From NCBI RefSeq assembly GCF_964204645.1, contig NC_134028.1, forward strand, positions 26,448,153 through 26,512,152: 64,000 nt of DNA, in the 5' to 3' direction. Source of the stretch: Tubulanus polymorphus (lineage: Eukaryota > Nemertea > Palaeonemertea > Tubulaniformes > Tubulanidae). Positions 2,696-57,551 of the stretch are shown one piece after another. The position numbers and the translations under genes were made by a program. Each line of letters begins with the position of its first letter. Positions within the stretch are counted from its first letter, which is position 1. The notes beneath the pieces are model-generated. The model was not told where the DNA came from. It saw nothing but the letters and a program-made list of their open reading frames with translations, and did not search any database.

Positions 2696-3620
2696 CGAGA
2701 ACTCTGACTTTGCTGTTATCAGCCGGAAGTTCTGTGCTGACTTCTTTCTCTTTCTCGGGTTAGATCAAATATGATGTAAAGCCGTTAAAACTATGTATTA
2801 CCAGCGTCTATTTGGTTGTACTTCAATTTATGCCGTGAAACTCTGGAAATTTAATTTTTCATCCAAGGTTCTTTCCCCTTCCATCAAAATCTTCCCCAGT
2901 TTTTCTTGTCGCAGCAGATGATAACGTCTATATTGTATTCGTGAACTCTGTAATCTCGAGCATCTTTTGTGTACTTCAAAAACATCGTAAACTCTGTATC
3001 TTTGATTTCTGTTTCAGACCCCCTCATCCTGGCCTTTCATCATTTTCGTCATCCACTATCAAAGTTAGATATAGTTGCAAATTTAATTTCAGCTTATTAC
3101 TTGGGGCAATAGTGGTATATCAGGGGTTCATTTTTGATAATTCAAAAATGCAGGTGTTTGATTCTCAGAAAAAAAACCTGGCATTAGGAGGGGGCTAGTG
3201 GAATTTTGGTGTTGATTTCTTGCTAGCTCTAAGGCAAAAACTCAGACATTCCGTTCTCAAAAAAACCTGGCTTATCGTGTGGGGAAGAGGTACATGGTTT
3301 GGCTGTATATGTACCTAACCCAGACACGAACGGAGCTGGCATAAATCTGTGGCACAATAATAGTTAATGCTAGGGATAGGGATGGTTATGAGATAAAGCT
3401 TTCTCAAACCACAGCGGTCAGACTCTGTCTGACAAACATTTTGAACTAATATATAATATGCTCTCTTCATCTTGTCATTTCGCTAGCCAGAAGTCAAACT
3501 CTGATGGTGGGAAGTCTGGTGACACCAACATCCATAATCCGACTCCGGGACTGAGTCCGATGGCACTCTTGGACCTTCCAACAACATCATTCCCTAGTCA
3601 ACACGCGGCGCAAGCAACTT
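2696..3620. other. Intergenic, nothing recognised
   Basis: No coding exon, RNA gene or clear repeat was seen. A phrase AAAAAACCTGGC recurs near 3172 and 3257, too short to interpret. Confidence 0.5.
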
Positions 3621-4380
3621 GTAAGATTGACTGCTATATCTGCACTTCGATTTAAAAAAAAAACTAAGAATATGTAAAACTTAGACAAAATTCTACCGTG
3701 TAAACTTTCGGACTACTTCGATTTTGGAAAAAAATTATGTAAGATTGATCGCCAATCACACAACTATATCTGCACTTCAATTTAAAAAAAAAACTGTAAA
3801 AATAGGTAAAACTTAGACAAAATTCTACCTTGTAAACTTTCGGACTACTTCAATTTTGAAAAAAAATTATGTAAGATTGACTGCTATATCTGCACTTCGA
3901 TTTAAAAAAAAAACTATAGAAATAGGTAAACTTAGACAAAATTCGACCTTGTAAACTTTCGGACTACTTCGATGTTGAAAAAAAATTATGTAAGATTGAC
4001 TGCTATATCTGCACTTCGATTTAAAAAAAAAACTATAGAAATAGGTAAACTTAGACAAAATTCGACCTTGTAAACTTTCGGACTACTTCGATGTTGAAAA
4101 AAAATTATGTAAGATTGACTGCTGTATCTGCACTTCGATTTTAAAAAAAAACTGTAAAAATAGGTAAAACTTAGACAAAATTCTACCTTGTAAACTTTCG
4201 GACTACTTGGATTTGAAAAAAAATTATGTAAGATTGACTAAACTATAACTGCACTTCGATTTAAAAAAGAAAACTAAAAATAGGTAAAACTTAGACAAAA
4301 TTCTACCTTGTAAGCTTTCGGACTACTTCAATTTCGAAAAAAAATTATGTAAGATTGACCGCAGATCACAACTATATCTG
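3621..4380. repeat. Tandem array, ~119-bp unit, about 6.3 copies
   Basis: The phrase GTAAGATTGA begins units at 3621, 3739, 3871, 3990, 4109, 4228 and 4349, giving spacings of 118, 132, 119, 119, 119 and 121 bp. Each unit carries an A-run of 8-11 bases and the phrase CTTTCGGACTACTT. The 132-bp unit has an extra insertion. The last partial unit runs directly into the duplicated block at 4380. Confidence 0.9.
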
Positions 4381-5070
4381 TACTCAAAAAGTCAAACGAG
4401 AACCTGAGATCAACAACTCATCTAAAATCTGCCGATGAGAGAACAGCTCACATAACGGCCCAGTTTGAATTCAACTCATCAGCCAACAAACTTAGATGAT
4501 CCACGTCGATAATGAACCCAGCAATCATAAAGGTAACTTGATGTACATGGAAAAATTTTGATTCATTCTAAATGAAATATTTGTAATTACAGGATATCTT
4601 ATGCATCGTGTTTCTTATAAATTGAGGAGCAGCACAAACAATAGTGCATGTTATAAACACTGAAATCTAGGAGCGGCGAAGATAATAGCGGACTTCTGTA
4701 GTAAAGTATTGATTGTTTTTACCTATCACCCTTTTTCAAACCAGTCGGATGATATAGTGATTTTGATGAAACTATCTAAATATATATATGAAACTATAAC
4801 GATAGTTAAGTCAAATTAGGTTAGTGACGAGTGGTAAATGTTGGCGTCGAGCACCTAGTTTGGACTCGTAGGTCTGGTGAGTTAACACCTAAACTGAGAT
4901 ATAGTTTCAACATGATATCGTGAGTTTTATCTTCGTGCTTACCGTAATTAAACATAGTCAACAGAGGCTATGCCCCTGCCTGACTTAGCCCTAGATAGCA
5001 CATAGTTAGGAAACAGAACATAGCGTTAGGCCAGTGGTCTATGTACAAATAGGTCTCAGCACTTTGACAA
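4380..5070. repeat. Diverged duplicate of 9120-9870
   Basis: This block matches 9120-9870 in the same order and orientation. Shared phrases include TTCTGTAGTAAAGTATTGAT, AGATATAGTTTCAACATGAT and AAACATAGTCA. It also contains one copy of the exon-like unit amplified at 7566-9110, with a donor-like AAAGGTAACTTGAT near 4532 and an acceptor-like AATTACAG before GATATC near 4590. It is therefore a segmental duplication with one unit here and about seven in the other copy. Confidence 0.8.
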
Positions 5071-5089
5071 ATCTAGAATAAAACAAAGC

Positions 5090-7150
5090 TTTAATTGGTT
5101 CAAATCATTCCTGAAAGCCATACTCTGTGCCTTTTTTTCCCCTAATGATTATTGTTTAACTGACAATTATCATATATTGCTAGGAAAAATTGCTCACTAA
5201 CCAATGGCTTAGATCCACAATTAAGATGAATTCAATATTTCTAAGATCAAAAACTATTAATACGGTATGTAATACTGGTCCATAATATAAAAAACTGAAA
5301 ATTCGTTAAACTAAAAATTTAAATATAGCTGATATATGTATGAGCACATCTGAATCAGTCTCATCGACTGATCAGTATTTCCATCTCCAACTGCCGTGCT
5401 TATGGCAATTGGTCAGGTTCTTCATAATTGCCGAGATTTACCCAAACCTAACTGATTCATCTTAAAGCCATACTGTGTGTCAAGTTACACGTAATAGATA
5501 TTGTGTAACTGACAATTAGAATCATAGGTGAATAACTCATTAATGTATTACTATAAGATATCTACGATTAAGGTAAATTCAATATGTTATGTGAAATTGT
5601 TTTTAATTCAGGTCCATGGACATTTAAAATGTAGCTGATACATGTGTATCTGATCACATTTATTAATCTGTATCTAGTAAACCTATTGTGTCTTCATACA
5701 GCTGTATTAGTTTTGATACATATTGCCAAAATCATTTCACGCAGATTTACTTCCGATCGAAGGGAGATAAAACAAATCTGTACGTGCACAAATACATTCC
5801 TGAATTTGGAAGGGAGAATATTTCAATTTCACTGTGTATGTCAGATTGAGAGCCTTATTCTGACAGGATATCCTAAACTTAGGTCTTATTCCTCTTGCTA
5901 ATAGCTCTCTTTTACTAACCCCTCTCCTTCAAACTATTTTCTAGCATCATGTCTTGCACCGCACCAGGGAGGTCCGGTCATAACAAGGTCTTTCAGTCCT
6001 TATACACAGTGTACTACTATTACTATAAAAGGGAAATAAAGATTATATAGCAATTCGGCTATAAGGGAATTTCTAATTTACCACTTAAATGTGCTTTTAT
6101 CTTAATTTCTGATGAATTCAAATAGTGATGAATTCACTTCATCTGAAATTCTACTCATGTAGATTTTCAGGCTCCATGTTCAACTGAAAATTAAAATGTA
6201 GCTAGTATGATTGCTTATTAATGGATCGCTTAGATATCTAGAAGATTAATTAAAATTAATTCAATGTAATGAATATAAGTGAAAATTATTTAAAAATAGT
6301 GCAGTGGATGAGATGACTGTTTCGTGCAATGTCACCTGCGTCATAACTGGGCGACATGTGTGTGGGATCTGTTGAATCAGTTAGGTTTTGGGGAATTCTG
6401 TATTCGTCAAACTAGATACCAAAAGCTCTGATGCAAAATAAGCATTTTGAAATAGTGATCAATCGAAACCAGATCTAAAATTCTTGTCGCGTAGAAATAT
6501 CAAGCCCCGTATAAAATATTGTCAGAGACAATTTTAATTATAGCTAGGAAATTAATTGGGTGATTAGGTATCTAAGATGAAGATTAATTCAGCATCTTCA
6601 TATAAGGTAAAAGTGCTCAAATCTAAACCTTAGGGGTTGATAAGAAAACTGTATATTCTAATTGGTTTATATCTAAAGAAAACAGGGTGTGTTTAAACTT
6701 CGTCTCTTAGGCTTGGGATTTATTGAATCTTTTTAGACTTTGCAGAATTCTGGATTTGTCAAGGCGTTGGAATGATTCAAGGTTTCTTAAATCTGTAGAA
6801 CTATGTTGACCAGGATCAGTGTGCTCAATGCTGGCAGCGCACTATTCAGTCAGTTTAAACATCATGAATTCAAGATCATTGTATATATAAGGAGCAATAT
6901 TTAGAATTACTGAAATGGATTAGAATACCATTCACTGGAGTAAACAGTACAAAAACAATTTGATAAGATTTATTATGCATTACTAAATTTGTTGTAACTC
7001 TGGTATTCCTGAAGATGACTATAGATGCTTTAATCGAATTGCTGTTAAACTATAATTATCAACCGTGTGCTTAGATATCTAGAAGATGAATAACAATATG
7101 AGTTGAATTTCATATAAATATCATTTAATAATTGACTATTATCAAAATCT
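5090..7150. repeat. Decayed ~340-bp tandem repeats
   Basis: Motifs related to TTAGATATCTAGAAGAT recur near 5208, 5557, 6230, 6565 and 7071. A second motif (GGAATTCTGTATTCGTCAAA and relatives) recurs near 6395 and 6745. Several spacings are near 335-350 bp or about twice that, which suggests an old tandem array with heavy decay and missing units. No coding exon was seen. Confidence 0.5.
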
Positions 7151-7379
7151 ACATATCGGTCCACATTGCTGATCTTATATGTGAATTGACACGTTCATTA
7201 TGATCAGTGATATTCGAAAGGATTTTCTGCTCACAAGATTCTGCTCTTAATTTTAGCTGAATTACTAATCGACTAGTCATAAAATGTACAAAATGATCTT
7301 CAACCTTGTAAGATAGATATCCAAAATCTTGATGTATTAAGATAGGCAGAAAAAAAGTTAACCCCAATCAGTCGCTTTC

Positions 7380-9120
7380 TGACTGGATGGAAGATGAATT
7401 AACCTGAACCGAATTTCGCAATTACGTGCTTGGATTTAAAGAAAGAAAACTCTGTCAGCTTGACCACCTACTCAAATCAATCAAACGAAATCTACCAATC
7501 ACCCGCAGAAGAATCAAACCAACACAAAAGATCGTCACCAATACTGAACCCAGCAATTTTGAAATGTAAGTTTATTTTTATGGAAATAATTATGATAAAT
7601 TCTAAATGAAATATTTTGTCATTAAAGGATATCTTCTTTTAATCATTGCAGCTAAATTTCAGCTATAAGAAGAAACCCAGCTTGAGATCAACTACTCGTC
7701 CAAAATCGACTAACTGGAATAGTGAACAGATGAGGCCAACAGAATCGACCTTACTAACCAACCAACAAATAAGATAATCGCCGATAACGAAACAAGCAAT
7801 CATAAAAGGTAAGTTAATATAAATGAAATTATTACGATTAATTCTTATTGAAATATTTTGTCATTACAGGATATCTTCTTTTAATCATTGTTGCTAAATT
7901 TCAACTATAAGAAGAAACCCAACTTGAGATCAACTACTCGTCCAAAATCGACCAACTGGAACAGCACACAGATGAGGCCAACAGAATCGAACTCATTAAC
8001 CCACCAACTTTAGATGATCCACACCGATAATGAACCAAGCAATCATAAAAGGTGACTTGATATACATGGAATTATTTCGATTAATTCTTATTGAAATACT
8101 TTGTCATTACAGGATATCTTCTTTTAATCATTGCAGCTAAATTTCAACTATAAGAAAAAAACCCAGCTTGAGATCAGCTACTCATCCAAAATCGACCAAC
8201 TGGAACAGTGCACAGATGAGGTCAACTAACTAACCAACTAATAGGATAATCGCCGATAACCAAGCAATCATAAAAGGTAACTTGATATACATGGAATTAT
8301 TTCGATAAATTCTAAATGAAATATTTTTTCATTAAAGGATATCTTCTTTTAATCATTGCAGCTAAATTTCAGCTATAAGAAGAAACCCAGCTTGAGATCA
8401 ACTACTCGTCCAAAATCGACCAACTGGAACAGCGAACAGATGAGGCCAACAGAATCGACCTAACTAACCAACCAACAAATAAGATAATCGCCGATAACGA
8501 ACCAAGCAATCATAAAAGGTAACTTGATATAAATGAAATTATTACGATTAATTCTTATTGAAATGTTTTGTCATTACAGGATATCTTCTTTTAATCATTG
8601 CAGCTAAATTTCAGCTTTAAGAAGAAACCCAGCTTGAGATCAGCTACTCGTCCACAATCGACCAACTGGAACAGCGCACAGATGAGGCCAACCGAATCGA
8701 ACTCATTAACCCACCAACTTTAGATGATCCACACTGATAATCAACCAAGCAATCATAAAAGGTTATTTGATATACATGAAATTATTACGATTAATTCTTA
8801 TTGAAATATTTGGTCATTACAGGATATCTTCTTTTAATTATTGCACCTTAATTTCAACTATAAGAAGAAACCCAGCTTGAGATCAACTACTCGTCCAAAA
8901 TCGACCAACTGGAACAGCGAACAGATGAGGCCAACAGAATCGAACTCATTAACCAACCAACTTTAGATGATCCACACCGATAACGAACCAAGCATTCATA
9001 AAAGGTAACTTGATATACATGAAATTATTATGATTAATTCTTATTGAAATATTTTGTCATTACAGGATATCTTCTTTTAATTATTCCAGCTAAATATCAT
9101 CTATGAGAAAAAACCCAGCT
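7380..9120 (+). repeat. Tandem array of exon-like ~243-bp units with splice signals
   Basis: Donor-like GT dinucleotides after an AAAAG context lie at about 7809, 8052, 8277, 8519, 8762 and 9005, with a stronger one (GTAAGT) at 7566; the spacing is 242-243 bp apart from one 225-bp unit. Acceptor-like TTACAG or TTAAAG before GATATC lies near 7627, 7869, 8112, 8337, 8579, 8822 and 9065. Each unit thus reads as a ~165-183-bp exon plus a ~60-bp intron on the plus strand. One reading frame of the exon part is nearly open but broken by the same TAA (in CTATAAGA) in most copies, so a protein is doubtful. It could equally be a satellite that happens to contain splice-like motifs. Confidence 0.7.
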
Positions 9121-9870
9121 TGAGATCAACAACTCATCAGAAAATCTACAAGTAGATGAATACTGATTGACCCATTTGCTGATGAAAACTGCAGAAGTCC
9201 AGATTAGAAGTTGAGGAGCCAGCAACGGATTAATCACTCAACCATGGATTCTTCTACAAACGGTGGTTGATTTCTATAAAATATTTTACCAGGAGCAGCA
9301 GATACTATAGTGAATCTTATAAACACTGATTCGAGCAACAAAGCTAATGGATTATCTCATAAACACTGATTCAGGATAAGGCAATAGTGTATCTTATTAG
9401 GAGCAGCATAAACAAAGTCAATCTTATAAACACTGAGATCCAAGAGCGGCAAAGACAATAGCGGATTTCTGTAGTAAAGTATTGATTTTTTACTTATCAC
9501 CTTTTTTCAAACCAGTCTGATATAGTGTTTTCAAGGAAATTATTTTATAATGTTTAATGCAATGTGAGAGTCTAATAAAAGCTAAGCTCCATTAATTCAC
9601 GATATTGGTCTTCGATCCTTGGTTGATAGAGAAGTCAAGTTAGGTTAGTCACTAGGGGTAAATGGTCGCGTCAAGCGCCTTTGGACACGTAGGTCTGTTG
9701 AGTTAACTCCTAAACTGAGATATAGTTTCAACATGATATTGTGAGTTTAATCTTTAAACTTTACCATAGTTAAACATAGTCAGCTATGGCTATTTGTCCG
9801 TGTAGGTATCACATAGTTAGGAAACATAGAACATAACGTTAGGCCAGTGTTGATGTACAAATTTTAAGTA
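9120..9870. repeat. Second copy of the duplicated block, with a polyA signal
   Basis: This is the partner of 4380-5070 and directly follows the exon-like array. AATAAA lies at 9574-9579 on the plus strand in this copy only, so a transcript crossing the array could end here. Confidence 0.7.
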
Positions 9871-10035
9871 TTTGCTGAATTGTAGATGTATTAATTTGAT
9901 GGATGGATATGTCGATTTTCACATCGAGTTTTAACTTTGAGCCTCCATCAATCTGTTTGATGATCATAGCTACGTATTTGAAAACAAAAGCTTGATCTAA
10001 AAGGAGATTATTATTTACATTTGAGAGGTAAAGCT

Positions 10036-10158
10036 AGGAATAACCAGGCATAAAGTTATAGCTAGGACTAATTTTGAACGTTTTAACATTGTCTATAGCT
10101 GTTTGAACTTCTTTTATTGTAATGGGTAAATCCATATCACAAGATGGCTCTCATGAAT
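10036..10158 (-). mobile_element. LINE reverse-transcriptase relic
   Basis: Read on the minus strand, this piece encodes DLPITIKEVQTAIDNVKTFK, which resembles the segment of non-LTR retrotransposon ORF2 before the first reverse-transcriptase blocks (a 'PIT..EV..AI..LK..K' pattern, known from CR1- and Jockey-like elements). Stops lie on both sides, so only a short degraded fragment survives. The clade cannot be set from so little sequence. Confidence 0.55.
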
Positions 10159-10505
10159 AATAGCTTTAGCTTCAAATCGGGTGTATAATGATTATCAAGG
10201 AGTGGCGGTGAATCAGTAGTGCTTTTTCAAAATGGGCCCAGACCTTTACAGTGAAAAAATGCCTGCAGTTGTAAATAGAGGAGTATAAATAATACATAAC
10301 TACAAACTACAAGTACATAAATTAATTCTAAAAAATAAAAAAAAAACCAATAAATAATAAATAGAATAAACAACAATACAAACAAACAATAAATTAAAAT
10401 TCTATTTACATGAAAAGGCATTTTTTCAAATATTTATCAACAAGGTTCTTCATTTATCGAACAACCTTCCCTAAGTATAGCGAAAACCCGAGATAATTTC
10501 TGTTG

Positions 10506-10621
10506 TTATTCAAAGCATTCTATCAACTCAGTTATTGTAATGAACAAAACAAATAACCATAAACCTTAACTAAATCGAAAACATTAAAAAAATAACTGAT
10601 ATGATAGAATGCTTTGAATAA
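10506..10621. repeat. 116-nt foldback with 31-nt arms
   Basis: The arms 10506-10536 and 10591-10621 are inverted copies with about two mismatches (left arm begins TTATTCAAAGCATTCTATCA). The 54-nt spacer can extend pairing slightly through TAATG/CATTA. It could be a MITE remnant or a hairpin transcript; the long loop argues against an ordinary miRNA precursor. Confidence 0.7.
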
Positions 10622-10639
10622 CTGTGATGAAAGATCGAC

Positions 10640-12200
10640 CCGTCCTTTCAACTAGCTGCGCTCAATCACTGCTGTGACTGTTTATTGTTATACATGGGTA
10701 GACTTACTGTCTAAAATCTGGTAAATACTTTTAACTTTCTTAAAAGAATGTTAAACAGCTATAAACTTAGTTATTGATGTTATTGATTAGTTACCGATTG
10801 TATAATTACGTTGATCTTTTCAAAGCTGGAAGAAAAAGCGTCAGAATACTTAGTATGTAATGTCAAGGTGTTAGGTAATCTTTAAGTCGGGGCAAAGTTG
10901 GCAAAATTCTAGATTTCTAGTGAAAGTAATGATTAATTGATACTAAGAGTACCAGAGTGAATCTGAGTTTCTCATCTCTAGTTTTAATGTTTTTATGTTG
11001 GGAGACTGTGATTGTAACACAGTTTATGTGTTTGTAAATTAGGAACTTGCATGATGATTCCTCGATTAAGATATTATTGTTGTGTGAATAAAACGATGTA
11101 CATTTTCATCATTCATGTTGAAACATTTCAGTTGTTAAGTTTTATAGCAACAATTTTACTTTAGTGCTTTTCAGTGGTTCATGAAATACAGATTTAATTA
11201 AGGGCCTGTGGAAATAGCAGCAGATTCTTGATAACTTGAGGATACGCAGTGCTAATTGGTCAATTGTTCTAGCTTTGTTTTGATTGTCGGTTTAACCACG
11301 TCTGTTTAGGTAGGGCCTGAAATATCTGGACTCGAAGAATTTCTGATCTTTATATAGAGTTGTATTTACTACTATCAAGTTGAATAATATAATTAAGAAG
11401 TTGCCGTAGCTTTGTCAGTTAAATCATATTTGTTTGAAGATACTCGATTTATCTTGAATTGTCACAAGGAAAAACCTTTATAATAGTTTGCAGAGTTTAA
11501 TCTAAGGAATAAATGCCACTTGACCTTGGGGCAAGCATATACGTAGGTAGTATCACTTGACCCTCAAAAATCAACCTGTCCTACATGCAGTGCAATTGTG
11601 ACACATTCATCCCTTACATTGAGTGGGCAACTTTTTCACTGTGGTGCTTTTCGATCAGTGGTTCATAAAATACTATATTTTATTAAGGCATATTTTATTT
11701 CATAAAACACTGATTTAAGGTCCTATCGAATATAGTTGAGCTTTTTCTTGATAATTGAGATATCCTCAATCTCAATGTCATTTGAAAAGTTGACATGATA
11801 GATCCTGATTTCATGAAATATAACAAAGTGTCGGTTATATTGACCTCATGAATTATCAAAAACTAGTCCAATTGTCAGTGTTTTATGCATCAAAGTTTAT
11901 AATTCTTTGTGTATTTTGTTATTTTCCTAATGATGCAAATTGTATAAATCAGCTGTAGTGGAAATGTATCGTAGATAAAGACTTCTAAATACCTTACATG
12001 TAACTTTTGTGGTTTTAAAGTTAGTACAATTTCATACATAGTAATAGAAATAAAATTACTATAAAAATTTGAGAAAATAAGCTAAGAGGTAATAATTTGA
12101 TATGTGAAAATAAAATGATGTAAAAAATGTAAATCAGATTGATTAATCCTACGCTTTCCAGAGTATTTGGCCAGGTTTATCTCTGGTTTTAGTGCGGGGA
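10640..12200. other. Intergenic, no gene recognised
   Basis: AT-rich. The only notable item is a short stretch at 11505-11580 (CACTTGACCTTGGGGCAAGC) related to a repeat in BTAF1 intron 6. No exon could be supported. Confidence 0.5.
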
Positions 12201-12201
12201 G

Positions 12202-12306
12202 CCATGGACAATTGAGTCCATGGTTGGACCATAGACTTTTTTGTTTTAGTCTATGGCGTTGGACTATGGGCGTATAAACTTTCGTTTACAGTTTATACAC
12301 CTATGG
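12202..12306. repeat. Cluster of three adjacent small hairpins
   Basis: Three inverted repeats follow one another: CCATGGAC (12202-12209) with GTCCATGG (12216-12223); CCATAGAC (12229-12236) with GTCTATGG (12249-12256); GTATAAAC (12272-12279) with GTTTATAC (12291-12298). The words CCATGGAC and GTATAAAC also build the 34-bp palindrome at 35690-35723, so the two sites share a repeat family. Confidence 0.7.
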
Positions 12307-12484
12307 TGGTTGGACTAGTCGTTTTTGAAAGTCCACGTGTTTGAGGAGCTCACATTATAATTCCTCAAGCACTCCTGGCATTTTGTATAATTGTTGTATG
12401 AGAATAAATATGAAATTTGTCATTCGTTTAGTTAAATTTGATATAGCAACAAGTCAAAGCACTACTAAAAACAAAGACTATATG

Positions 12485-12631
12485 CACCAGAGAAAACCTG
12501 ATGGCATCTCTTCAAGCCACGATACAAACCGTGCAAATATCGATGCCATCAGGTTCGAATCCCTGTCGGGGAGGATGGATGCCTGCACTCATTGGCAGAG
12601 GTGGTTACGATTACGATTACGATTACGATTT
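12485..12631 (+). mobile_element. Possible tRNA-derived SINE fragment
   Basis: GGTTCGAATCC at 12552-12562 is a perfect RNA polymerase III B box. About 40 bp downstream a hexamer run (TTACGA repeated, 12605-12631) forms a simple tail as in many SINEs. No convincing A box and no cloverleaf could be drawn, so a functional tRNA is not supported. Confidence 0.35.
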
Positions 12632-12740
12632 ATTTACACTCCAACCATTTCCATGGTATATGGAGGAAAACTATTACACATGTATATACAAATATTTACA
12701 AAACAACACTAAAGTGATTAAAATTTAGAGAATGAAAACG

Positions 12741-12840
12741 TAACGAAATATATATATACATCAACTATTTACAATACTATATATACTATTATATACATCA
12801 ACTATTTACAATACTATATATACTATTGGAGGGATCTATA
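12741..12840. repeat. AT-rich short tandem duplication
   Basis: A ~43-bp segment containing ATACATCAACTATTTACAAT is present twice in a row, followed by GGAGGGATC. Confidence 0.7.
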
Positions 12841-13410
12841 TACATCTAAGCCGGTCTTAATGAATTTAGCTAAGTTGACCGTTGGGTTTTTCAGAATATC
12901 AAGGTTGAATACACAGATAGCGCCCCGAGAGATTATTTCTAGGTGCATAGGTCATCAGTCTTCGTTTTAGTTATGCATAGTTCTAGTATCGCTGAGTGTG
13001 CATAGGTCTTCGTTTAAGTAGCGCAGTTTTAGTAACACCCCATTTCACTGCCCTTCTATTAATTCACTGCTTTTCACCGGGCGGCCCGTGAATTATTTAT
13101 GATCTCTGGCAGTTGAATCAGTTGCAGTTTCCTGGAAAACTTTAACTAGGCTACACACGCGTTCTGAAGAGAAACTAAGCTTCATTCTGATCTGAAGTTA
13201 TTTTGAACCAAAGGAAGGAAGTTTCATATTCGATAGCAAAATGGACTTCGGCTAATAATCCTCCGTGAGCAATAAATCCGAACCCTCAACATTAAAAACA
13301 CGTTATACTTCTTTATTTTACAATTTCATATCGAATGAAAGTATATAATTTATACAAATTGCGTACAGTTTAATATTATATTCCAGGGGTGACATTCAAT
13401 CGTGCTTATA

Positions 13411-14720: not shown

Positions 14721-29649
<14,929 letters not shown>

Positions 29650-51990: not shown

Positions 51991-52850
51991 ATGAGACCAG
52001 TGCTAGAAAGAGAGAGGTAGAATCGGACCAGAGAGGTTTACGGTGAGACCAGTGAGAGAGAGAGGTAGAATCAGACCAGAGAGTTGTACGGTGAGACCAG
52101 TGAGAGAGAGAGGTAGAATCAGACCAGAGAGGTTTACGGTGAGACCAGTGAGAGAGAGAGGTAGAATCAGACCAGAGAGGTTTACGGCGAGACCAGTGAG
52201 AGAGAGAGGTAGAATCAGACCAGAAAGGTTTACGGTGAGACCAGTGAGAGAGAGAGGTAGAATCAGACCAGAGAGTTGTACGGTGAGACCAGTGAGAGAG
52301 AGAGGTAGAATAAGACAAGAGAGGTTTACGGTGAGACCAGTGAGAGAGAGAGGTAGAATCAGACCAGAGAGGTTTACGGTGAGACCAGTGAGAGAGAGAG
52401 GTAGAATCAGACCAGAAAGGTTTACGGTGAGACCAGTGAGAGAGAGAGGTAGAATCAGACCAGAGAGTTGTACGGTGAGACCAGTGAGAGAGAGAGGTAG
52501 AATAAGACAAGAGAGGTTTACGGTGAGACCAGTGAGAGAGAGAGGTAGAATCAGACCAGAAAGGTTTACGGTGAGACCAGTGGGAGAGAGAGGTAGAATC
52601 AGACCAGAGAGGTTTACGGCGAGACCAGTGAGAGAGAGAGGTAGAATCAGACCAGAAAGGTGTTCGATATTCCCTGGTGAGACCAGTGAGAGAGAGAGGT
52701 AGAATCGGACCAGAAAGGTGTTCGATATTCCCTGGTGAGACCAGTGAGAGAGAGGTAGAATCAGACCAGAGAGGTTTACGGCGAGACCAGTGAGAGAGAG
52801 AGAGGTAGAATCAGACCAGAGAGGTTTACGGTGAGACCAGTGAGAGAGGT
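51991..52850. repeat. 48-bp minisatellite after cytohesin, ~18 copies
   Basis: The unit is AGACCAGTGAGAGAGAGAGG then TAGAATCAGACCAGAGAGGT then TTACGGTG. Variants (GAGTTGTACG, AAAGGTTTACG) alternate in a higher-order pattern, for example near 52080, 52270 and 52460. Both strands are open for more than 180 codons because the unit is 16 codons long; neither frame starts with ATG. Confidence 0.97.
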
Positions 52851-55025: not shown

Positions 55026-55457
55026 TCATACCACTCTTTTACCCCTAGCAGTCCGATAGATCCGACAGTCATTGACGTCACTCAGTACACCCTGTAGGCA
55101 GATAATGATGCGAGGCATTGTCGTCCTGGTTTGCATTCCCTGTGTGAGGGCACATAGGGACATCATTTCCTGGCAGACTCTTTCCTGACGTTCTTGACAA
55201 GTGACCGGCGAAGAAGAGCTGACGCTTTCGGACATTAGTTTTGTACCAGCAAACGTTGAAATTCGACAGAGAAATCGGCCCTGAAAAATATAACGGGTTA
55301 GAGCTGAAAAATAGAACGGATTAATAAACACGGAACAGTACAGGACAGTACGGAGACGAACAGTAACACATAAAACATAAAGACGTCGTTCCTCAGGAAG
55401 CAGGAACAGGAGCGGGAGCGCAGCGAAAATCGCCAGGAGGAGAATCCACGGTAGCAT
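55026..55457 (-). CDS. Hypothetical secreted cysteine-rich protein
   Basis: A minus-strand frame starts MLPWILLLAIFAALPLLFLL, a strong signal peptide or anchor, and runs about 143 codons. Its C-terminal part has six cysteines (RFLC, VTC, RVC, SLC, IIC, NDC), an even number that would allow three disulfides, and ends TARGKRVV. An acceptor-like TATTTTTCAG (reverse strand, before GGCCGATTTC) splits the two parts exactly at a codon border, so the middle (about residues 25-60) may be a short intron, although I found no good donor. I do not recognise the family. Confidence 0.35.
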   Translation of the reverse strand: MLPWILLLAIFAALPLLFLLPEERRLYVLCVTVRLRTVLYCSVFINPFYFSALTRYIFQGRFLCRISTFAGTKLMSESVSSSSPVTCQERQERVCQEMMSLCALTQGMQTRTTMPRIIICLQGVLSDVNDCRIYRTARGKRVV

Positions 55458-55469
55458 GTTCACAGTGTG

Positions 55470-56420
55470 AGTTAGCTGAGGTGAATGACCGGCCTAGCGA
55501 TTCTACTTACTGTCGACCGGTGGTGTATTTCAATATTGACCAATAGGCAGCCGCGCTGTTTGTCTCTTATCGTGAATGGGGGGTTTACTGAAGTTTGTGG
55601 AACGTTACGCCGAATACACACGCGACGTCACCTCTGTATACATCCAGCATATAAACCAGACACGGGTCCCATTCAGATATTGATCTATAGAAATATCTCT
55701 GAATTGTCGAAATTACCGCATGATAAAACACTGGACGCGACGTCACATCTTATACACCCGGCATAGGCCTATACTATAGTATATGGCATAACTTTATTAG
55801 GCCACGCAAAGAATACCCGTGTTTCTCATCAGCTTTTTTGGAAAAGTGACGAGGTTTGGCAGGTTTTTATTTTGGCCCTTCTTTAAAAAAAAGTAAATAA
55901 AAATTCTCATTCAAAATTCCAAAAGTGACGAGGGAGACTATTTTTTTTATATTTTTTTTTCTTATCTGAGGAAATCCGGAAATTTAGGCGTTGACGACCT
56001 TAGGATGGAAAGACCTTCGTTATCGAAATACTCACCTGCCACAGTAACTGACCATGAAATTTAACCAAAAAAGTGTGATTAGGTTGTTATCAGCATGCAT
56101 GCGAGAATGTTTTACTTTAAAAAAAGATAAACTTAAACACATGTCTTCACTGCATGCGGGATGTGCATTTTTATTTATATTTTTTTACTGACGAGCTTTT
56201 TTTGACGCTCGCGGAAAATGAAACTGATAAGAAACAAGCATTTTTTAGTGGCCTTTATTCGAAACCGCTGCTCCGAATCAACAAATGTGAGTTCTATGGA
56301 ATTATCCATACTGGTCCGTACGAATAGCCTCGGAATGGCGTTCGGAATTATCCATATGGTCCGTGTGAATAGTCACTTCGTTCTTTAAAAATGATGTGAA
56401 AGTCGAAAATCTTCAAATTT
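55470..56420. other. Intergenic before MED9
   Basis: No conserved exon seen. AT-rich, with T- and A-runs at 55880-55965 and 56110-56215. MED9's start codon follows an acceptor-like AATTTCAG (56416-56423), so a noncoding 5' exon may lie here or upstream; a donor GTAAGT at 54421-54426 is one candidate. Confidence 0.4.
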
Positions 56421-56908: not shown

Positions 56909-56996
56909 GCGAGATCGCGATTGATTAGAACTGAGGTAACATTACAGAGGATTATTGCATTTCCCGATTTAGTGAGGTCGGATTAAAAGATTAATA

Positions 56997-57551
56997 ATGG
57001 CTTCTGATGATAGTAGTAACAATCGAATACAACCGCATTCGATATTTATTAAAGATCCCGAAGATTGGATGCAATATTTGTATAAGTTCGTCAGCGTAAA
57101 AACGACCGGGTTGACGGAGCACGTCGGCTGGGTTTATACGATAGACCCCGTCTCTGAAACGGTCTGTCTCGTCCGTTTCGACGACACCGGTCGCGAAATC
57201 CCGTCGATGGATATCGTGATGGGTCACGCGGTCAACTCGATCGAAATTATCAACGCTTACGCCGAGCAATATCGCGCTAAATTAGACCAGTTGTTCAAAT
57301 CGAAATTCGATATTCCGTTGACGCGCGCAGAGATCTCGCAACGTCGCGATAAAGTGACGGATTGGCTGATTAAAAATCGTCTGCCGGTGAAGCAGGATTC
57401 GTCGGATACCGATGTTATAAATGTTGCGGATGTGTTGTTCATCGAAGCGCCCTACACATCCGAACACTGTCGCAGTACTAACGAAATTATACTCGGAAAA
57501 ATACAAGGACTATTAAAAAATATGCCTGAAGATGCAGATTCATGGATATGA
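56997..57551 (+). CDS. GEMIN6: Gem-associated protein 6, single exon
   Basis: Component of the SMN complex that loads Sm proteins onto snRNAs. The intron-free frame codes for 184 aa. Its first ~85 residues form the Sm-like fold: DPEDWMQYLYKFVSV, GWVYTIDPVSETVCLVRF and GHAVNSIE match the family's strand pattern. The C-terminal half contains RRDKVTDWLIKNRLPV and IEAPYTSEHCRSTNEIILGK, also typical. Human GEMIN6 is about 167 aa. The start ATG is preceded by an acceptor-like TTTCCCGATTTAG (56958-56970) and another at 56941-56946, so a 5' leader intron is possible. PolyA signals follow at 57666 and 57729. Confidence 0.93.
   Translation: MASDDSSNNRIQPHSIFIKDPEDWMQYLYKFVSVKTTGLTEHVGWVYTIDPVSETVCLVRFDDTGREIPSMDIVMGHAVNSIEIINAYAEQYRAKLDQLFKSKFDIPLTRAEISQRRDKVTDWLIKNRLPVKQDSSDTDVINVADVLFIEAPYTSEHCRSTNEIILGKIQGLLKNMPEDADSWI

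Follow-up and report, generated by a model that had tools for sequence, protein, structure and literature searches.

Does a tandem array in which every unit resembles a complete exon with its own splice sites represent a transcribed gene that grew by exon amplification, as an initial annotation of the sequence had proposed, or a repeat of some other kind? In this work we address the question for an array in the genome of the nemertean Tubulanus polymorphus (268 Mb in 77 contigs), located in a window of 64,000 nucleotides that corresponds to bases 26448153-26512152 of contig C4. Our analyses indicate that, to all appearances, the array is a satellite carried inside a large, dispersed and non-coding repeat and not a distinctive exon-amplifying gene.

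Structure of the seven-unit array

The seven units of about 243 bp that had been described are borne out both by TRF, which reports a 243-bp period over 7583-9135 (6.5 copies, 87% matches, score 2293), and by the acceptor-like GGATATC sites at 7627, 7869, 8112, 8337, 8579, 8822 and 9065, which are spaced at 242, 243, 225, 242, 243 and 243 bp. In each unit AAAAG/GT is succeeded after about 62 bp by TTACAG or TTAAAG and then GATATC. Several details of the initial annotation call for qualification. TTACAG, which had been assigned to every unit, occurs in all of them except units 1 and 4, where TTAAAG stands instead; likewise, donor-like GT sites do lie between the acceptors, but their sequence is not the uniform AAAAG/GTAACTT that had been reported, reading after AAAAG successively GTAAGT, GTGACT, GTAACT, GTAACT, GTTATT and GTAACT, in addition to the GTAAGT at 7566, which is present as described. 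The polyA signal noted after the array does exist as an AATAAA at 9574, intact in 17 of 20 copies, but it is no better conserved than its surroundings (hexamer diversity.046 vs.052 in the flanks).

A composite repeat dispersed through the genome

The array forms the central module of a composite repeat that extends on the forward strand from about 5050 to about 13098 in the window. Its 5' part (5050-7516), which is truncated in the window copy, consists of diverged repeats with no ORF and is followed by the 243-bp satellite (7517-9146), whose units keep a donor-like AAAAG/GTAACTT together with acceptor-like TTACAG and TTGCAG. Beyond the array lie a conserved tail (9146-9880), which contains the AATAAA and is represented by about 40 genomic copies at 84-95% identity, and a 3' part (9880-13098). 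In the copies read the order is constant: 5' part, AT-rich repeat, 243-bp array, tail and 3' part. Related copies were found at no fewer than 40 loci on nearly every chromosome. Array, tail, 5' part and 3' part all have dozens of matches spread over most chromosomes, the majority at 80-95% identity, and for both the 5' part and the 3' part 40 genomic places were scored as matching. A search with a 33-base word from the unit, allowing up to 3 mismatches, recovered at least 902 units genome-wide, compared with 0 for the reversed word used as a control. The proposal of a single gene growing by exon amplification at this locus is therefore not supported, since the array sits in a repeat found at dozens of loci. 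Searches against Rfam gave no match anywhere within the 64-kb window.

Upstream of 5050 the window contains sequence from a related element, which we designate subfamily B. On the forward strand, an AT-rich tandem array with a period of about 119 bp (3620-4359, detected by TRF) is followed by a lone diverged unit of the 243-bp type (4405-4600, 78% identical to the units of the array across 200 bp) and by a second copy of the tail (4621-5050, 80-86% identity to 9396-9862) that ends at a locus-specific junction. The diverged single unit that had been reported at 4380-5070 is thus real. In 7 of 7 other copies read, the sequence preceding the equivalent of 5050 differs from that of the window, and the upstream unit therefore belongs to the second, related element; the notion of an earlier exon of the same gene was rejected. 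The window copy is a chimera, to which the end of a subfamily B element (119-bp array, one diverged unit and tail) is joined before 5050, and it is because of this junction that most genomic matches to the 5' part start at the equivalent of 5050-5054. Arrays of the subfamily B type also occur elsewhere, on contigs C11 (11.356M), C1 (8.69M and 30.75M) and C6 (22.60M).

Coding potential and splice signals

In principle, the array could belong to a multi-copy protein-coding family whose tandem exons are coding and whose members are largely pseudogenised, some remaining intact, and one frame can indeed be read as a coiled-coil-like peptide (EKTQLEINYSSKIDQLEQRTDEANRIELIN), 10 of 221 exons being free of stops in that frame. 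Against this, synonymous bias was absent in all three frames among 210 units from 28 loci, 156 of which are less than 97% alike (fraction of synonymous alleles.256,.253 and.238 observed vs.253,.250 and.245 expected), and exon lengths (181, 180, 175, 176, 132 and so on) show no preference for multiples of three (105/84/32 modulo 3), so that neither the synonymous bias nor the frame-preserving lengths of a protein-coding exon array were found. Most units contain a stop, and which frame is open differs between units; Pfam searches covering six frames of 5050-13300 and, in a full copy, the three forward frames of its initial 6 kb returned no domain match. We consider a coding family extremely unlikely, and the earlier suggestion of a noncoding or dying sequence fits the absence of coding constraint in this sample.

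A donor/acceptor pair as good as that of the unit consensus arose in 0.27% of 1500 dinucleotide shuffles, in a test whose thresholds were set after seeing the unit and in which the pair counts as one ancestral event, not seven; the pair is therefore probably not accidental. A second AG, TTGCAG, lies 23 bp downstream of TTACAG behind TCTTCTTTT and is among the most conserved pairs. Furthermore, sister copies of the repeat carry a single-copy exon-intron about 3.5 kb upstream of the array (L053 2596-2705), which agrees with the unit at 80 of 113 bases (71%) across donor, intron and acceptor. Its donor region aligns with the unit donor and its acceptor, TTTCAG, with the unit TTGCAG, which is the strongest evidence for an exon-intron origin of the unit, an origin that we regard as very probable. 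TTGCAG is most likely a better ancestral acceptor than TTACAG, which shifts the ancestral acceptor by 23 bp from its earlier placement.

Whether these signals are still in use bears on a further alternative, in which the family would be a transcribed non-coding gene family and each unit a functional spliced exon, with 7 to perhaps 86 in tandem. Such a family would accord with the improbability of the splice-pair consensus arising by chance and with the rigid length of the intron-like part, which measures 62 bp (donor GG to TTACAG) in 208 of 217 cases beside a variable exon length. The comparison of splice-site with interior conservation gave a divided answer: TTACAG (diversity.063 and.087; P = 0.33 jointly with the donor) evolves as freely as its neighbouring columns, while conservation of the donor GT and TTGCAG is somewhat above that of adjacent pairs drawn at random from the conserved stretch (P = 0.02, uncorrected and for a pair chosen post hoc). 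The donor-intron-acceptor stretch as a whole varies less than the interior of the exon does (diversity.079 vs.167), which counts against the satellite interpretation, but the low diversity covers all of the intron as well as 65 bases at the start of the exon and so reaches beyond the splice sites themselves. Together with the unremarkable conservation of both TTACAG and the AATAAA hexamer, and with the high-copy dispersed nature of the family, this leads us to regard functional splicing of each unit as quite improbable. It is very unlikely that transcription and unit-by-unit splicing of the arrays yield long non-coding RNAs of 7 to perhaps 86 near-identical exons from dozens of loci, in which case the splice signals of a former gene would be maintained within a satellite. 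The low variability of the donor-intron-acceptor stretch and the conservation of donor GT and TTGCAG nevertheless leave room for some retained splicing.

Satellite behaviour and proposed origin

The arrays behave as expected of an element-borne satellite: their monomers are non-coding and arranged head to tail, array length varies, and higher-order repeats are present. The number of units ranges from 7 in the window to about 86 in an array on C8 (about 9876524-9897488), the latter figure being inferred from coordinates, with about half of the array read. Long arrays are organised into higher-order repeats, 2134 bp long on C8 and 1115 bp long on C6, and in 121 of 210 cases the closest match of a unit is a member of its own array, a pattern that local amplification would produce; unit identity is 0.897 within arrays and 0.877 between them.

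We therefore consider it probable that the array is the central satellite of a composite repeat, large, dispersed and non-coding, that would behave like a non-autonomous mobile element, and that its monomer derives from an exon and intron. The ancestral intron would most likely have run from AAAAG/GTAAGT to TTGCAG/, over about 85 bp. We infer that the exon-intron module was amplified inside the element by unequal exchange or slippage, independently in different copies and with the formation of local higher-order repeats, and that its old reading frame decayed after amplification, presumably leaving the array with no present function. Debris from other genes is present in some copies. Mobility is proposed on the basis of the observed dispersal, to which segmental duplication could contribute.

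Element ends and class

The right-hand limit of the shared sequence falls at 13097-13098 in about 12 copies; in others it falls at 13144-13159. Just before the former limit, in about 12 copies, lies a 20-bp palindrome, TTCACCGGGCGGCCCGTGAA (13073-13092, read from the sequence), which adjoins the boundary in the window and is also present in the C8 copy and in L064. Self-comparison revealed no terminal inverted repeats spanning the element. Features bearing on its class do not agree, some being Helentron-like and others retroelement-like, and each of the two classes constitutes a narrower form of the explanation preferred above.

A non-autonomous element of Helentron or Helitron type, with a satellite array and captured fragments of genes as its cargo, would account for the tandem repeats at the centre, flanked by conserved modules on the left and right, for the palindrome located exactly where the right-hand shared sequence ends in about 12 copies, and for the gene fragment carried. 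Subterminal inverted repeats and the left end were not found in the copies as far as they were read, and the right module measures about 3.9 kb, compared with about 60 bp in Cg_HINE, the non-autonomous Helentrons of the Pacific oyster (PMC7492417); we regard this class as possible though doubtful. Descent from a retroelement, of LTR type or otherwise, with long direct repeats at its termini is suggested instead by the recurrence of L053 277-526 as a direct repeat at L054 4351-4590 (87%), by further repeat sequence common to the left and right ends (L065/L066 vs L064), and by a right-end repeat that also stands alone at L063, L067 and more than 20 other places, with a common 3' end around GGGATCAACCGG. 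These stand-alone copies begin at differing points, the left-end repeat lacks the last ~950 bp of the right-end copy, so that direct repeats of the same length at both ends were not found, and no gag or pol was found in the frames searched. A clean LTR structure was rejected because the left direct repeat is incomplete, and a retroelement origin in the wider sense appears improbable.

Gene fragments and neighbouring sequences

A full copy of the repeat (L053 and L054) contains a thioredoxin exon fragment at L053:769-912, followed by a GTAAGT donor, with a best E-value of 1.2e-4 to solved thioredoxin chains. The fragment occurs at about nine places, all coinciding in coordinates with copies of the repeat or its 5' module, and its frame is open in some copies and interrupted in others. 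It is one instance of the gene debris aboard some copies.

Several other sequences were also observed. Intronless seven-transmembrane receptor-like ORFs lie to the right of two of them (L054:6198-7253, minus strand; L052:5180-6253, plus strand), with matches to Pfam Srw and 7tm_1 that are both under the curated cut-off; they were rejected as part of the element, being outside the shared sequence, with relatives of the L054 ORF at several other genomic places. The window itself contains an intact Gemin6 ORF at 56976-57551 (plus strand; Pfam Gemin6 and Gemin6_C), 31 copies of a 21-bp repeat at 21861-22517, whose minus strand encodes MRYRLHL repeats in an open frame of 161 aa, and a 48-bp tandem array at 52009-52848 with several frames open on both strands. 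The string GTKLMSES is common to the translations of two minus-strand ORFs, one in the window (55026-55493, with no Pfam match) and one at L053 2419-2700, and suggests another short dispersed repeat shared by the window and L053.

Implications and comparison with known systems

If the preferred reading of the array as an element-borne satellite holds, an exon-intron module can turn into a satellite monomer and be spread by a dispersed element, and splice-like signals kept in such a satellite can mislead gene prediction. Were the units spliced, the arrays would serve as a natural experiment on the number of near-identical exons that splicing can join.

An initial literature search on exon-intron repeat units returned nothing relevant. 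Tandem exon duplication in genes generates a series of exon-intron modules, each with splice sites of its own; the array described here differs in its lack of coding constraint and of phase symmetry and in its high-copy dispersed setting. It resembles Cg_HINE in having satellite-like central repeats between conserved flanks, genome-wide dispersal and a right-end palindrome, and differs in its kilobase flanks, its exon-intron-derived monomer and its gene fragments, and in that subterminal inverted repeats were not found in the sequence read (PMC7492417). With Tetris, a non-autonomous foldback transposon of Drosophila virilis, it shares internal tandem repeats (about 220 bp in TIR-220) that expand to satellite-like arrays, whereas the Tetris repeats sit in terminal inverted repeats, of which none were found here, and the unit of our array derives from an exon-intron (PMC4079207). 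A soybean CACTA transposon with host gene fragments likewise carries and multiplies host exons within a repeat; in our case one exon-intron module has been made into a satellite, in an element not known to have CACTA ends (PMC1947982). The element-borne satellite is thus of an ordinary kind, as in the oyster HINEs and Tetris, and the decayed exon-intron monomer is its unusual form.
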